From Bacteroidota bacterium (lineage in GTDB: Bacteria; Bacteroidota; Ignavibacteria; SZUA-365): DNA of 46,279 nt. Below are positions 30,151 to 35,685 of this stretch, piece after piece; the first letter of the stretch is position 1, and each line of letters opens with the position of its first letter. Under the pieces are notes generated by a model. The model searched no databases. It was given only the letters and a program-made list of their open reading frames with translations, and was not told where the DNA came from. The stretch lies in contig QKAF01000013.1 in assembly GCA_003246455.1 (NCBI GenBank), positions 1-46,279 of the forward strand, written 5' to 3'. The position numbers were made by a program, and so were the translations under genes.

Positions 30151-31110
30151 CTATCCCAAAAAGCTACGGATGGCGGGTACAAGATGCGAGAGAGAAAGCA
30201 GTCCGTCCAGGGGAAATCCCTCACGATTCCCGAAGAAGACGGCCGGCACAGGGTGACGCGTATGCGTCTTGATGCCGATTTCCTCCATGTTGCCGTGATC
30301 GCTCGTCACGATGACCAGCGTGTTCGCAAGGTCTGCATGATCATACACCCCGCGGAGCAGCTCGTCAACCTCCCCTAGGACGTGCCGCGCCTTGGCGCGG
30401 TTCATCTCGTGCCCCGCCTTGTCGGTGCGGAAGTACTCGAACAGAGTGAAAGCGTGCGTGTCGGCGACACGGGCAAGAATCGCCCCCGCTTCGTACGGCG
30501 TGGAGACCGGTGCGTCGGGATGCCCGATGGCGTGCCACCGCTCGGCGGTGATATCGGTGGAAACGGCAAGTCCTGCCTTCAGATCGTCGATGTCGCGGAA
30601 GGGTACGCCCGCGGTGAGGGCGGCGTACATGCCCGCGACAATGCGTCGCCGCGGTCCGTCGAGGTAGTCGAAAAACCGCTGCGGAAAGGCGTTCGCCAGG
30701 GCGACGGGACGGGAGCTCCCGTTGGATTTGAGCTGCGCGAAGATACTGTGAGCCTCGACGACCGGTTTCAGCGTCGAGTAGAGATAGGGCCCGAAATGCT
30801 GGCGGATGATGCGCGCCGCGTTGATGCCGGTGTACAGTGTCGCCTGTCCCGTTCCGCTCTGGGGGAGCCCCGCCACACCGAGGTTGGGATCGAGCGGGAT
30901 GCACGACGCGACGGCGCTTTCCAGGGTGCGGCTGCCGAGCGAGGGAAGCTCGCCGTCGAACAGGGCGGAGAGAAAGGGGGGACGGGTTTCGAAGAGCGGG
31001 TTGCGGCGCGGGTCCTTCACCCCGATGCCGATGCCGTCGAGAAAGACCAGCAGCACACGGCGCTTTTCCTTCCCGTGCGGGGAGGGGGGAGGAGGATCAG
31101 TACGATTCAT
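30151..31110 (-). CDS. Metalloenzyme-superfamily (alkaline phosphatase/iPGM-like) protein
   Basis: A 319-residue protein of the alkaline-phosphatase/phosphopentomutase superfamily. Metal and nucleophile motifs are in order: [11 protein letters not shown] (first Asp), [14 protein letters not shown] (candidate phospho-Thr/Ser), DKAGHEM (Asp/His), [12 protein letters not shown] (Asp-His), and [13 protein letters not shown] (His). It has no inserted domain like that of true phosphoglycerate mutase and is shorter than it (about 500). It is probably a phosphohydrolase or phosphomutase of unknown substrate. It overlaps the 3' end of dtd by 14 bp. Confidence 0.82.
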
Positions 31111-31582
31111 CGCCTGCGCCGTATTCGGATTTGCTCTTTACCGTCACGGTCACCGGACCGTCGTTCACCAGTTCCACCTGCATCATGGCGCCGAATTCTC
31201 CTGTTCCCACGCGGCGGTCGCCGAGCAGGACACGCATTTCCCCGACGAAGCGCTCGTACAGACGCTCGGCGAGCACGGGTTCGGCGGCATGACCGTAGCT
31301 GGGCCTGTTCCCTTTACGCGTATCCGCGTGGAGGGTGAACTGCGACACCACGAGCGCCTCACCGCCGGTGTCGAGCAGCGAGAGATTCATCTTTCCTTCC
31401 GTGTCCTCGAAGACGCGCAGCCGGGCGACGCGTCCGGCGAGGTATATCGCGTCGGCTTCCGTATCCCCGTGACGGACACCGCAGAGCACCAGCAGGCCGG
31501 GACCGATCGCGCCCGTGATGCGCGGATCGGTATCGCCCACGGTCACGCGGGCATGGCTGACACGTTGAATGAGAACACGCAT
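31097..31582 (-). CDS. dtd: D-aminoacyl-tRNA deacylase
   Basis: A 161-residue Dtd. It opens with [15 protein letters not shown], and carries the family motifs [18 protein letters not shown] and [19 protein letters not shown] (the Gly-Ala... cross-subunit loop). It hydrolyses D-amino acids and glycine mischarged on tRNA. The gene is 11 bp downstream of the SpoT-type HD gene and overlaps the next gene by 14 bp, so it belongs to a minus-strand operon. Adjacency of dtd to relA/spoT is known in other bacteria. Confidence 0.97.
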
Positions 31583-31593
31583 GCGGAATCCGA

Positions 31594-32211
31594 TCAGGAG
31601 TAGAGTTTGCGCTTGATGCTGTCCATTTCCTCAACGATGCGATCGAGCATTTCGTTCTGCTCCTCACGCGCCATCGGGTAATAATCCCGCTCGGTTGCCT
31701 CGATGTAACCGAAGGGATTGCGCTTTACGCCGAATTCGAGACAGCGGTAATTGTCCAGCCGCTCGGCGAACTTGACGATTTTACAATCGATGCTGCTGAA
31801 GCGCAGTCGTTCGATGTACTCGGTGTCTTCCTGCTCCCGCTGGACCCCCATGAGACGGATATTCTTCGTGAGCACTTCCACGATGTAGGAAATGTAGGCG
31901 CTGAAATTGTACTTGATCACTTCGGCGGTGATGATTTCCGAATCCTCGAGCACGTCGTGCAGAAGCGCCGCGCTGATGACATCGGCGTTCAGGTAGCGGA
32001 GTTCGTGAATCACGATGCGGGCGACGCGGGAGAGGTGCCAGAAGTAGGGAGTGGAATCGTTGCGCCGCTGGTACTCGTGCACGCTGCTCGCCATTTCATA
32101 CGCGCCGAGTACGGTCGTGAGTTCGACGGGATCCAGTTTCGTCGCGATGGCGTCGATCAGTTCCTGGCGCGTGAAATGGGTCTGATTGTATAGCGGAAGC
32201 GTAGATTCCAT
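31594..32211 (-). CDS. RelA/SpoT-type HD hydrolase, stand-alone
   Basis: A 205-residue protein consisting of the hydrolase (HD) domain of RelA/SpoT enzymes, with no synthetase, TGS or ACT part. Key residues aligned to Rel hydrolase: His59 (YFWHLSRVA), His85-Asp86 and Glu89-Asp90 (ALLHDVLED), Asn154 (AERLDNYR). The position normally occupied by the metal-binding Asp of ADRLHN is Glu150 here. VEVLTKN matches the conserved TK turn. It may be a small alarmone hydrolase degrading (p)ppGpp, or have another nucleotide substrate. The start is set at 32211 because an earlier ATG (32283) lies inside the preceding gene's terminator; 32235 is another option. Confidence 0.82.
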
Positions 32212-32266
32212 AGCGTGCGTGCTTGCGGGTGACATGCGGGCGGTTCGTGTATCCGCGGTATCGGGT

Positions 32267-32302
32267 AAAAAAAAGCGGGACACCGCGGCTGCGATGTCCC
32301 GT
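32267..32302 (-). terminator. Rho-independent terminator for the GH57-like gene
   Basis: On the minus strand, CGGGACA pairs with TGTCCCG (32301-32295 with 32282-32276), with extra inner CGC/GCG pairing, followed by a run of eight T (32274-32267). It begins 16 bp after the GH57-like stop. Confidence 0.93.
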
Positions 32303-32317: not shown

Positions 32318-34900
32318 TCAGTACTTGTTCTTGATGCGCGCGAAGATGTCCTCGATGGTCATCTTGTCGCCTTCGATCTTGATGCGGCGCCACTCGTCGG
32401 GGAAGGTCTCCGCACCGTCCCAGGTGCCCTGACCGCCGGAGTTGCAGTACTTGTACAGCAGATCGCCTTCGTCGAGTTCGACGATCAGCGTCCACTGGTT
32501 GTCGCCGTAGTTCTTGTCGCCGTTCTCGCCGTTGTCCCACATCCGGATGGTGTTCGGTTCCATGTTCGCAAGTTCCTTGCGGTTGCCTGCGATGAACACG
32601 GAGGTAATGGCTTCACGGTCGACCAGTTTGCAGAGGAAGGTCACGGTCGTGCGCTTGCGCGGCTTGCTCCATTCCGGGGAGAAGTCCGCCGGATTGACGA
32701 ACGCGTCGAACTTGGTCGGCTTCGCGAGGCCTGCCGTCACGTACGCGTCGGCAAGCTGGTTGCGGAACTGAACCTCGAACGGTTTCGGCGGCATTCCCTG
32801 CACGGAACTGCTGTTGAACAGCTGCATCCAGTGGGGGCTGGTCGCGGCGTAGAAGAAATTCATCGGCTGCTGCGTGAAGTTGTCGAGGTACTCGACGGTG
32901 GTGACTGCCGCGGCGCCCTTGCCCAGATCGGTGCGCGCCTGGCGGAGATAATCCCACGCCTTGTTCATCTCGCGGCTTCCGATCCACATGTTGAACTTGC
33001 CGTTGAAACGGGAACCGGCGGCCAGTTCCTTGATCCCGTCGAAGTCGTCGACCTTGTTGGCCGGGATACCGCGCAGGCGGTTGCCCTTGACGTATTCGCT
33101 CAGCGTCACGGAGACGACGGCGCGGGTCTTGAACAGCTTGTTGAGCTTGCGGTAGATCCCGTTCATGATGCCCTTGCCGTCGATATCGCGCTGGTAATAC
33201 TGCCAGGCATCATCGCCGTCGATCACGACCGTCACGAGCGCGTGCTTCTTCGGATTGTTCGGCGCCATGGCCAGCACGTTCGAGATGAAATCGTCGGCGG
33301 AGTTTTCCGCGTAGTAATTGCGGTAGCTCCAGTTGATGCGGTTCGTCAGCAGGGAATTCGAGAACGCGCCGTACATGGTTTTGCCGTCGATCGTGACGGA
33401 GTAGGGAAGCGTGCTCGGAAGGTTTTTCGGTGAGGAGTTCTTCAGGACCTGCTCGTCGGAGACGAACCAGTCGAAGCCGTTGTCTTTCAGCAGCGGAATC
33501 ACCGCCGGGGAGATGGCGCCGAACGGTGCCACGTACCCGGTCGGGGTGTAATTGAAATACTTCTGATATGCGGTGAGGCTCATCTTCAGCTGCGCGTCCG
33601 CATCCTCGGGATGCATGTAGGCCGCGGGAAGGCTGACGTTCGGATCCGCCTGCTTGGCGATGTCGGAGTTGATCAGCAGCGGGAGGATCGCGTCGGAGTA
33701 CGACGACGCCGCCAGTTCGAGCTGTCCGATCATCGCGCGGCTGTCGAATTTCGTCTTGTCGAAGGCCGGCTGAATACTGGCCATGATATACCAAGCGGAA
33801 GCGACGATGCGGCGGCAGTCTTCTTCCGTGATCGCACGCTTGAGATAGTATTTGCCGTCGCTGCGGAAAGAAACGAGGTCGCGCAGGTCGAGCGAACGGT
33901 AGATGCGCGTGCCGGTCTGAATCAGGGGAACGCGGCGCTCGTAGAATTCACTGTCGAAATTGGAGAAGATCGCGAAGAACTTGAGCAGACGAAGTTCGTC
34001 CACCGTGTAGCTCGGATTGCCGTTCGCGTCGCGCCATTTCGCGTAGAGCTCCATCAGCTCGGGGAAGCGGTACAGCCGCACTTCGCTCATCGTGAATGCG
34101 TTCCACTCGTTCTTGTACAGCCACGCCTTGTCTTCGTCGGTCAGCTGCTCGGCCGGGGTGAGGCAGGCGTCGATCCAGGGATCGGTCTTGCCTTTCATTT
34201 CGCGGAGGAAACGCGCGGCGTCCATGTCGGCGGAGCGCGGATTCATCGCGCGGTACTTGGCGATATACGGTTCGAGCCGCTTGACGTAGATTTCCTGCAG
34301 CTGCCAGAGCAGGGTGGGAGAAAGAGCCACGGTCGCGTGCACGTTCGGATAGCGCTGGATCACGTCGGCCATCTGGAAGTAGTCGCGCAGCGCGTGCTGG
34401 CGGACGAAAGGCGCTTCGATGCGATCAGTCTGCGCGCTGTAATAAAGCGGCACGTGATGGCGGAAAACGATATTCAGATAGACGGTCCCACCCTTTTTCT
34501 CGTAATTATCATCAAGATTCATTCGTACCGGGTATCCCTGGGTACGCAGGCTGCCGTCATCCGAAACCGATACCAGTGAATTCAGACGACGGCCGTCGAT
34601 CGACTCGAACGTCAGCGGATTGGCCGGATCGATTTCGATGCTGCTGCCGTCAACCGAGTACGCGTACTGGTAGGTACCGGGAAGAAGGGGAACGGTCACC
34701 GACCAGGTACCGTCGCCTGCCTTGCTCATCGGATGCGCTTCCTTCGACCAGGCATTGAAATCGCCGACCAGCGAAACAGATGCGGCCTCGGCATTCGCGT
34801 ATACGAAAGAGATGCCCTCAGCCGTTTTTGTCGGCTGGGCATTGGCGAATACGGATACAAACAGGAGTGCAACCAGCAGGTGGAGGGAACTGCGTCTCAT
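32318..34900 (-). CDS. Secreted GH57-like protein flanked by CBM48-like and starch-binding-like modules
   Basis: 860 residues with a signal peptide (1-21, ending ANA-Q). An E-set/CBM48-like domain (about 25-95, VSLVGDFNAWSKEAHPM) comes first. A GH57-type catalytic region follows (about 140-650): FRHHVPLYY (His148, His149) replaces the HQP motif, ATVALSPTLLWQL is typical GH57, and VVIDGDDAWQYY supplies the expected acid/base Asp561. The usual nucleophile motif G-x-W-P-x-E reads GYVAPFGAIS, with Phe460 where Glu is expected. A CBM20-like domain ends it (about 755-845, FIAGNRKEL, YKYCNSGGQGTWDG). It probably binds α-glucan in the periplasm or outside the cell, possibly as a non-hydrolytic homologue. 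It is monocistronic. Confidence 0.8.
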   Translation of the reverse strand: MRRSSLHLLVALLFVSVFANAQPTKTAEGISFVYANAEAASVSLVGDFNAWSKEAHPMSKAGDGTWSVTVPLLPGTYQYAYSVDGSSIEIDPANPLTFESIDGRRLNSLVSVSDDGSLRTQGYPVRMNLDDNYEKKGGTVYLNIVFRHHVPLYYSAQTDRIEAPFVRQHALRDYFQMADVIQRYPNVHATVALSPTLLWQLQEIYVKRLEPYIAKYRAMNPRSADMDAARFLREMKGKTDPWIDACLTPAEQLTDEDKAWLYKNEWNAFTMSEVRLYRFPELMELYAKWRDANGNPSYTVDELRLLKFFAIFSNFDSEFYERRVPLIQTGTRIYRSLDLRDLVSFRSDGKYYLKRAITEEDCRRIVASAWYIMASIQPAFDKTKFDSRAMIGQLELAASSYSDAILPLLINSDIAKQADPNVSLPAAYMHPEDADAQLKMSLTAYQKYFNYTPTGYVAPFGAISPAVIPLLKDNGFDWFVSDEQVLKNSSPKNLPSTLPYSVTIDGKTMYGAFSNSLLTNRINWSYRNYYAENSADDFISNVLAMAPNNPKKHALVTVVIDGDDAWQYYQRDIDGKGIMNGIYRKLNKLFKTRAVVSVTLSEYVKGNRLRGIPANKVDDFDGIKELAAGSRFNGKFNMWIGSREMNKAWDYLRQARTDLGKGAAAVTTVEYLDNFTQQPMNFFYAATSPHWMQLFNSSSVQGMPPKPFEVQFRNQLADAYVTAGLAKPTKFDAFVNPADFSPEWSKPRKRTTVTFLCKLVDREAITSVFIAGNRKELANMEPNTIRMWDNGENGDKNYGDNQWTLIVELDEGDLLYKYCNSGGQGTWDGAETFPDEWRRIKIEGDKMTIEDIFARIKNKY

Positions 34901-35241: not shown

Positions 35242-35685
35242 ATGGATATCTCACCCCAGGTCGAGCTGATTCTCGAATTCCTGCAGCAATATGCGCCCGA
35301 GGGACTCCGTGACGAGAAGCTTTTCGCGCAGTTCATGCAGCATGCCCAGAACGGCGGCAAGCAGGAGGCACTCGGCGCGCTCGCCTTCCACGGGAAATAC
35401 CTGCGGAACCTCTATATCACCATCCGCCGGCAGACGCGGGAAACGGAACTCTACGACAAGATCGAGCAGGAATTCTCCCGCGCGGTGAATGATTTCCACG
35501 GGATGATCACCGAGTTCGTCGCGGACGCGGACGCGGATTTCCGGGCGACGGTCGAACGGCATGCGCTTGCCGTCAGTGAATCCGGCCTGAAAAACCTGCT
35601 CGCGCTGGCGGAAGATTTCACCGCGCTGAAGAACCTCGAACTCGACTATCTCAAGGACGAAGGAGCGGACAGTACCGAGGAATGA
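35242..35685 (+). CDS. Hypothetical helical protein
   Basis: A 147-residue soluble, mostly α-helical, acidic protein with no signal peptide or known motif. A helical N-terminal half contains EKLFAQFMQHAQNGGKQEAL; the C-terminal half (ELYDKIEQEF through SGLKNLLALAEDF) has heptad-like hydrophobic spacing that could pair. AAAGG about 9 bp before the ATG supports the start. The stop overlaps tilS by 4 bp, making it the first gene of the ten-gene run. Function unknown. Confidence 0.75.
   Translation: MDISPQVELILEFLQQYAPEGLRDEKLFAQFMQHAQNGGKQEALGALAFHGKYLRNLYITIRRQTRETELYDKIEQEFSRAVNDFHGMITEFVADADADFRATVERHALAVSESGLKNLLALAEDFTALKNLELDYLKDEGADSTEE

Follow-up and report, generated by a model that had tools for sequence, protein, structure and literature searches.

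The GH57-derived protein encoded in the 46,279-nucleotide stretch of DNA analyzed here (the window), from a member of the order SZUA-365 of the Ignavibacteria, is probably a secreted pseudoenzyme that arose from an active CBM48–GH57–CBM20 amylopullulanase-type enzyme and took on a new, non-catalytic role under strong selection. Judged from its sequence and those of its relatives, it would no longer make or break glycosidic bonds.

The open reading frame lies on the minus strand at 32318-34900, as do all features of the gene given below. It starts with an ATG at 34900, encodes 860 amino acids and has orthologs across the order. The protein is probably exported. Read by eye, its N-terminus has a probable signal peptide, a hydrophobic stretch of residues 1-21 ending in ANA before Q (34838-34900), lacks a Cys for a lipobox, and resembles the N-termini of the relatives. 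A CBM48 domain occupies residues 28-112 (34565-34819), as seen in the alignment and in a Pfam match at residues 28-87 (44.6 bits, above the cut-off of 22.4). The GH57 catalytic-domain region covers residues 138-660 (32921-34489), as delimited with Pfam and hhalign. The GH57 profile PF03065 matches residues 144-610 with 101 bits against a cut-off of 21.2, and four relatives from the order score 90-105 bits, compared to 163-201 bits in six active relatives. Aligned with hhalign, the profile of the order and that of active relatives match end-to-end over 834 columns with a probability of 100. By homology, as seen in the profile match and in the alignment with active GH57 proteins along the barrel, the protein is a member of GH57. 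A region after the barrel, residues 661-745 (32666-32920), carries a changed CSR-5 and is the fastest-evolving of the segments compared, with a mean rate of 1.71. The C-terminal domain, residues 748-852 (32345-32659), is CBM20-like: it reaches 17.8 bits, below the CBM20 cut-off of 23.3, and the same domain in two active relatives reaches 49.1 and 47.5 bits. Structure predictions for the window protein had pLDDT values of 35 (full length, six relatives) and 38 (residues 133-734, a single sequence without an alignment), too low for the models to be of use.

A first-pass annotation had proposed from the DNA alone that the catalytic nucleophile is lost, and alignment with active amylopullulanase-type relatives bears this out. 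F460 (33521-33523) falls opposite the catalytic Glu of GH57 whichever of three methods is used: MAFFT on 70 rows, phmmer with solved GH57 chains, or hhalign on two clade profiles (15 order rows, with L019 omitted, against 14 active rows), the last of these being gap-free near this position. The best matches among solved structures are the GH57 chains 9ii1, 9iht and 8zyi and their relatives (477-485 amino acids, E 1.5e-24), and these are restricted to the GH57 part of the protein. In the five phmmer alignments printed for such chains, the residue opposite F460 is Glu in three, Leu in one and Gln in one; the Leu and Gln chains are probably engineered nucleophile variants. The codons for F460, D561 and RHHV147-150 were confirmed in the window DNA. 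Across the 16 order rows (the window plus 15, after second copies of genes already represented, L001, L008-L012, L014 and L016, had been dropped), position 460 is most often Tyr (10 rows) and otherwise Phe or Gly (3 rows each). Taken as aligned, the mark of an active GH57 enzyme in CSR-3, the nucleophile Glu, is therefore missing from the order. Between D433 and E483 no residue is acidic in all 16 order rows, and therefore there is no new Glu near 460. Over residues 138-745, just three positions, D291, D403 and D564, are acidic in all 16 rows without being so, as a rule, in the active subfamily.

The same annotation had read the acid/base Asp as kept and the HQP motif as changed, and both readings hold across the order. 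D561 (33218-33220) is Asp in 15 rows and Glu in one, so that CSR-4 retains an acid/base residue. RHHV147-150 (34451-34462) replaces HxHQ: the first His of HxHQP is Arg or Lys in every row, and the second, H149, is always retained. By our own mapping of the motif, this first His would correspond to H10 of TK1436, the His listed as polarizing the acid/base in Table 1 of PMC6616209. So mapped, the polarizing His expected in CSR-1 is R/K147 in 16/16 rows. D403 (33692-33694) is an acid where the active rows have His, with Asp in 13 order rows and Glu in 3, and D563-D564 (33209-33214) replace the Glu-Asn of LDGEN; these codons, too, were read back from the DNA. At 403 and at 564 every order row of the 16 carries Asp or Glu, and no active row with a letter at these positions has an acid there (82 of the subfamily and 33 more distant). 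At seven positions (R/K147, H149, D/E403, D/E561, D563, D/E564 and R/K631) either the residue or its charge is the same in 16/16 rows, a constancy that would be compatible with a new pocket.

The loss is a property of the order. Each of the 16 order genomes examined, five of them less than 90% complete, has one ortholog that lacks the Glu and whose frame is uninterrupted. The match in G006 was counted with one TAG inside, which we take to be the natural stop; its frame of 878 amino acids ends level with query residue 857. The search sample comprised 391 genomes of the class and 296 of the phylum, drawn from larger groups. Here the 83 subfamily rows that come from other orders of the class (21 + 62 rows), some of them fragments, all have the Glu. 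They represent 82 matches at E <=1e-80 in 76 of 375 non-order genomes plus a second gene fragment of G096. The Glu is also present in 33 of 33 rows taken from the 45 more distant GH57 matches listed (E <1e-20), 32 of them from outside the order and one, L058, a separate GH57 of the order genome G012. Absence in 16/16 against presence in 83/83 and 33/33 rows is not chance. On a maximum-likelihood tree of the GH57 part (70 rows, from a quick search without bootstrap, with columns 455-464 excluded and the later 62 rows not included), the 16 order rows lie on one side of a branch with an SH-aLRT of 100, and the active subfamily as a group has a support of 82. The tree requires the Glu to change just once, and the order's stem branch is 0.93 changes per column long. 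A single loss of the Glu on this long stem branch explains its absence throughout the order. G012, which is 74% complete, is the sole order genome with two further GH57 matches (L058/L078 at G012:C107, and G012:C112), and L058 retains both the nucleophile Glu and the acid/base Asp.

Changes in the barrel go beyond the nucleophile. Active enzymes are near-invariant in 78 columns, and 29 of these have a different predominant residue in the order, including H147 to R/K, Q150, W165 to F, H403 to D/E, W457 to V/I, R514 to S/A/T, D520, E563 to D, N564 to D/E, W631 to R/K, S689, D690, W693 and W694; some of the changes are mild, such as I559 to V. Barrel Trp residues are lost in 16/16 rows at positions 165 (to Phe), 457, 631, 693 and 694, and under a looser cut-off W146 can be added, with F in 13 rows and W in 3. 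Five others, W478, W566, W639, W649 and W691, are retained in 16/16. Several of the lost invariant Trp residues may line the cleft. By our own matching of CSR-5, W693 and W694 appear to correspond to the pair of Trp that ends this region and that, according to PMC6037648, marks amylopullulanases, ‘although not unambiguously’. The 29 changed columns have a mean rate of 0.91, compared to 1.02 in other columns (Mann-Whitney p=0.44), whereas the 49 retained columns are slower (mean rate 0.51, p=1.4e-5). The changed columns thus evolve at the background rate, and the lost positions, as a set, are therefore without special constraint.

The starch-binding modules flanking the barrel had been described in the first-pass annotation as kept, and this is correct only in part. 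In CBM48, W51 is retained in 16/16 rows, whereas the Lys expected at position 80 is Ala or Gly in all 16 (Ala in the window protein) and Lys in 19 of 24 active relatives with a letter there. Full-length scans give CBM48 scores of 44.6 bits in the window protein and 33.8-43.5 in four order relatives versus 27.0-46.1 in active relatives, so that these scores are not reduced. In the CBM20-like domain, K817 and W827 are retained in 16/16 rows, whereas M780 (32561-32563, from the alignment, with the codon read back) occupies a conserved Trp position that is Met, Leu or Lys in all 16 and Trp in each of the 70 active rows that have a letter there. Of the pair of Trp that we take to be CBM20 binding-site residues, the first is therefore gone and the second kept throughout the order. 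The corresponding residues of CBM48 and CBM20 hold sugar in AMPK and glucoamylase. CBM20 scores are 32.5-58.7 bits in six active relatives; in four order relatives they are 31.7, 18.5 and 17.1 bits and no match, and L022, with 31.7 bits, is the sole one of the four to pass the cut-off. The domain is nevertheless the slowest-evolving of the segments compared (mean rate 0.66), and is therefore retained for some function.

The GH57-derived gene is under purifying selection. Pairwise dN/dS values (NG86) are 0.055-0.186 over 21 pairs of seven sequences; six of the dS values lie above 1.5 and are rough. Where longer flanks were available, at six loci, identity to the window protein is 76-94%, compared to 82-93% for FtsH, and the protein is more conserved than TilS and ComEC at each of them. 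In the most distant family of the order (L021-L023) it is 45% identical, versus 50-54% for the HD protein and 62-65% for the deacylase. These last two are neighbors of the gene in 16/16 genomes: a RelA/SpoT-type HD domain protein (31594-32283, minus strand), encoded by the next gene downstream at a distance of 34 bases, and a D-Tyr-tRNA deacylase, DTD (31097-31582, minus strand). The HD protein has 229 amino acids and an HDxxED motif recognized by eye, and it matches just the first 124 of 687 positions of the RelA/SpoT model; it is possibly a small alarmone hydrolase.

Other genes around it can be described more briefly. A metalloenzyme-superfamily protein of 319 amino acids (30151-31110, minus strand) matches PF01676 with 61.5 bits, over the later part of the profile only, and falls far below the cut-offs of the NCBIfam phosphoglycerate mutase and phosphopentomutase models. 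A plus-strand frame (35242-35685) is oriented divergently to the GH57-like gene; it encodes 147 amino acids, has no Pfam or NCBIfam match and overlaps tilS by 4 bases. This protein is encoded at the same place in 14 of the 16 order loci, the window included, and one miss (L023) is a short contig. None of eight window neighbors was found (E <=1e-3) in the 11-16 kb stretches around seven active relatives; the two of these seven loci that were scanned both have a gene for a GH13 protein with a secretion tail and sugar ABC transporter genes. α-Glucan metabolism is represented in the order by GH13 matches in the window's own genome and by glycogen-synthase-family (PF08323) matches in 15 of the 16 genomes. 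A short frame of 149 amino acids elsewhere in the window's genome (L095, G000:C111:99346-99564) has an AMPK1_CBM match of 32.6 bits and is perhaps a stand-alone glycogen-binding-type protein; similar matches occur in short frames of several relatives.

Several other explanations can be set against a new non-catalytic role. That an ordinary active GH57 enzyme has been misaligned at its nucleophile is very improbable. The identity of about 30-41% that most of the protein shares with active relatives and the conserved acid/base Asp are what such an enzyme would show, but the three alignments agree and are gap-free around 460, D291, D403 and D564 are the only order-specific acids available between residues 138 and 745, and neither R514 nor the first His of HxHQP survives. 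We consider it scarcely credible that the gene is decaying: many formerly near-invariant residues are indeed gone, yet the frame is intact in all 16 genomes, the dN/dS values are low enough to indicate purifying selection, and protein identity at the six loci is near that of FtsH. An inactive partner of an active GH57 paralog was rejected for 15 of the 16 genomes, among them the 11 with a completeness of 90% or more, as they have no other GH57 match at E <=0.001; the window's own genome has none besides the frame discussed here. Sialidases use Tyr as a nucleophile. As a general explanation, a substitute Tyr nucleophile was rejected, with Phe at position 460 in 3 and Gly in 3 of the 16 rows. 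A metal site at 460 of the GH38 or deacetylase kind was dropped, because the residue there is no ligand. Weak Polysacc_deac_1 matches below the cut-off of 23.1 bits in three order relatives (L020, 19.4; L018, 18.8; L017, 14.4) are taken as distant fold kinship only.

Two further alternatives are less remote. The first-pass annotation had suggested a glycan sensor or binder in place of an enzyme; its premise, the lost nucleophile, stands, whereas a starch reading of it is weakened. A starch or maltodextrin sensor or binder, in which catalysis is gone and α-glucan is still bound by the CBMs and perhaps in the cleft, is less likely than a new non-catalytic role, and we regard it as an unlikely though serious alternative. 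The unreduced CBM48 scores and the retained Trp residues, five of them in the barrel, speak against a complete loss of starch binding. Because L022 passes the CBM20 cut-off, the CBM48 scores are unreduced, and W51, K817 and W827 are kept, α-glucan binding may survive; the slow evolution of the CBM20-like domain and the glycogen-synthase-family matches fit such a sensor too. Against it stand the order-wide losses of five barrel Trp residues, of the CBM20 Trp at 780 and of the CBM48 Lys, the CBM20 scores of the order, and the non-starch genes that surround the gene. It is also doubtful, and more so, that the active site was rebuilt for other chemistry, with D/E403, D561, D563, D/E564 and H149 as a new acid/base or metal site. 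The different nucleophile that the first-pass annotation also allowed for might then lie among the acids at 403 and 564. The acids at 403, 563 and 564, the retained H149 and the basic residues at 147 and 631 in 16/16 rows argue for this, whereas position 460 varies among Tyr, Phe and Gly, position 561 is Glu in one row, and the changed columns as a set evolve at the background rate. We would give as little weight to the broader version, in which the former amylase site has been remade on the same barrel into an acidic and basic pocket (R/K147, H149, D/E403, D/E561, D563, D/E564, R/K631) for the binding or transformation of a different extracytoplasmic ligand in a function essential to the order. 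The retention of D561, H149 and five invariant Trp residues, together with the conserved acids D/E403, D563 and D/E564, does count against a dead pocket.

We favor a model in which the ancestor of the protein was an active CBM48–GH57–CBM20 amylopullulanase-type enzyme. Along the order's stem branch, it would have lost its nucleophile, the putative acid/base-polarizing His and several invariant Trp residues; afterwards the gene would have become fixed beside housekeeping genes and been maintained under strong selection. Its role would be exerted by binding, either to a protein partner or to a glycan other than α-glucan held in the old cleft, and the conserved CBM20-like domain and the charged, remodeled pocket would be the likeliest contact surfaces.

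The closest relatives of known type are active CBM48–GH57–CBM20 proteins of other orders of the class (such as L025 and L027), which share length and domain order with the window protein at about 30-41% identity and, unlike it, retain HQHQP, WP[AG]EG and LDGENAW; many other relatives in the class are without the CBM48 or the CBM20 part. A possible working analogy for a non-catalytic CBM48 protein that acts with an α-glucan enzyme is FLO6, presumably no enzyme itself and, to our knowledge, without a GH57 domain; it is a plant protein, and not homologous as a whole to the window protein. PMC6243121 reports an interaction of FLO6 with rice isoamylase 1. GH57-like groups without catalytic residues have already been described (PMC6037648). 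Table 1 of that paper has α-amylase-like, 4-α-glucanotransferase-like, amylopullulanase-cyclomaltodextrinase-like, maltogenic-amylase-like and branching-enzyme-like groups, and no amylopullulanase-like group. The group described here differs from those in this table in that its ancestors, by our matching, had a CSR-5 ending in two Trp, and in its CBM48 and CBM20-like domains, its order-wide occurrence and its fixed neighbors. The kind is thus known, and the present group looks like an amylopullulanase-type, order-wide variant of it. In open-access text we found no paper on the present group, none on a GH57 pseudoenzyme, and none for PDB entries 8ZYI, 9IHT, 9JLQ and 9JLV.

If these organisms were annotated from the GH57 profile alone, they would be credited with an amylase, even though the sole GH57 found in 15 of the 16 genomes is without its nucleophile. 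The family offers a clean case of an enzyme becoming an apparent pseudoenzyme, with one loss event, a known active sister clade, fixed neighbors, retention in 16/16 genomes and strong selection, and its new role would be testable in any cultivable member of the order.
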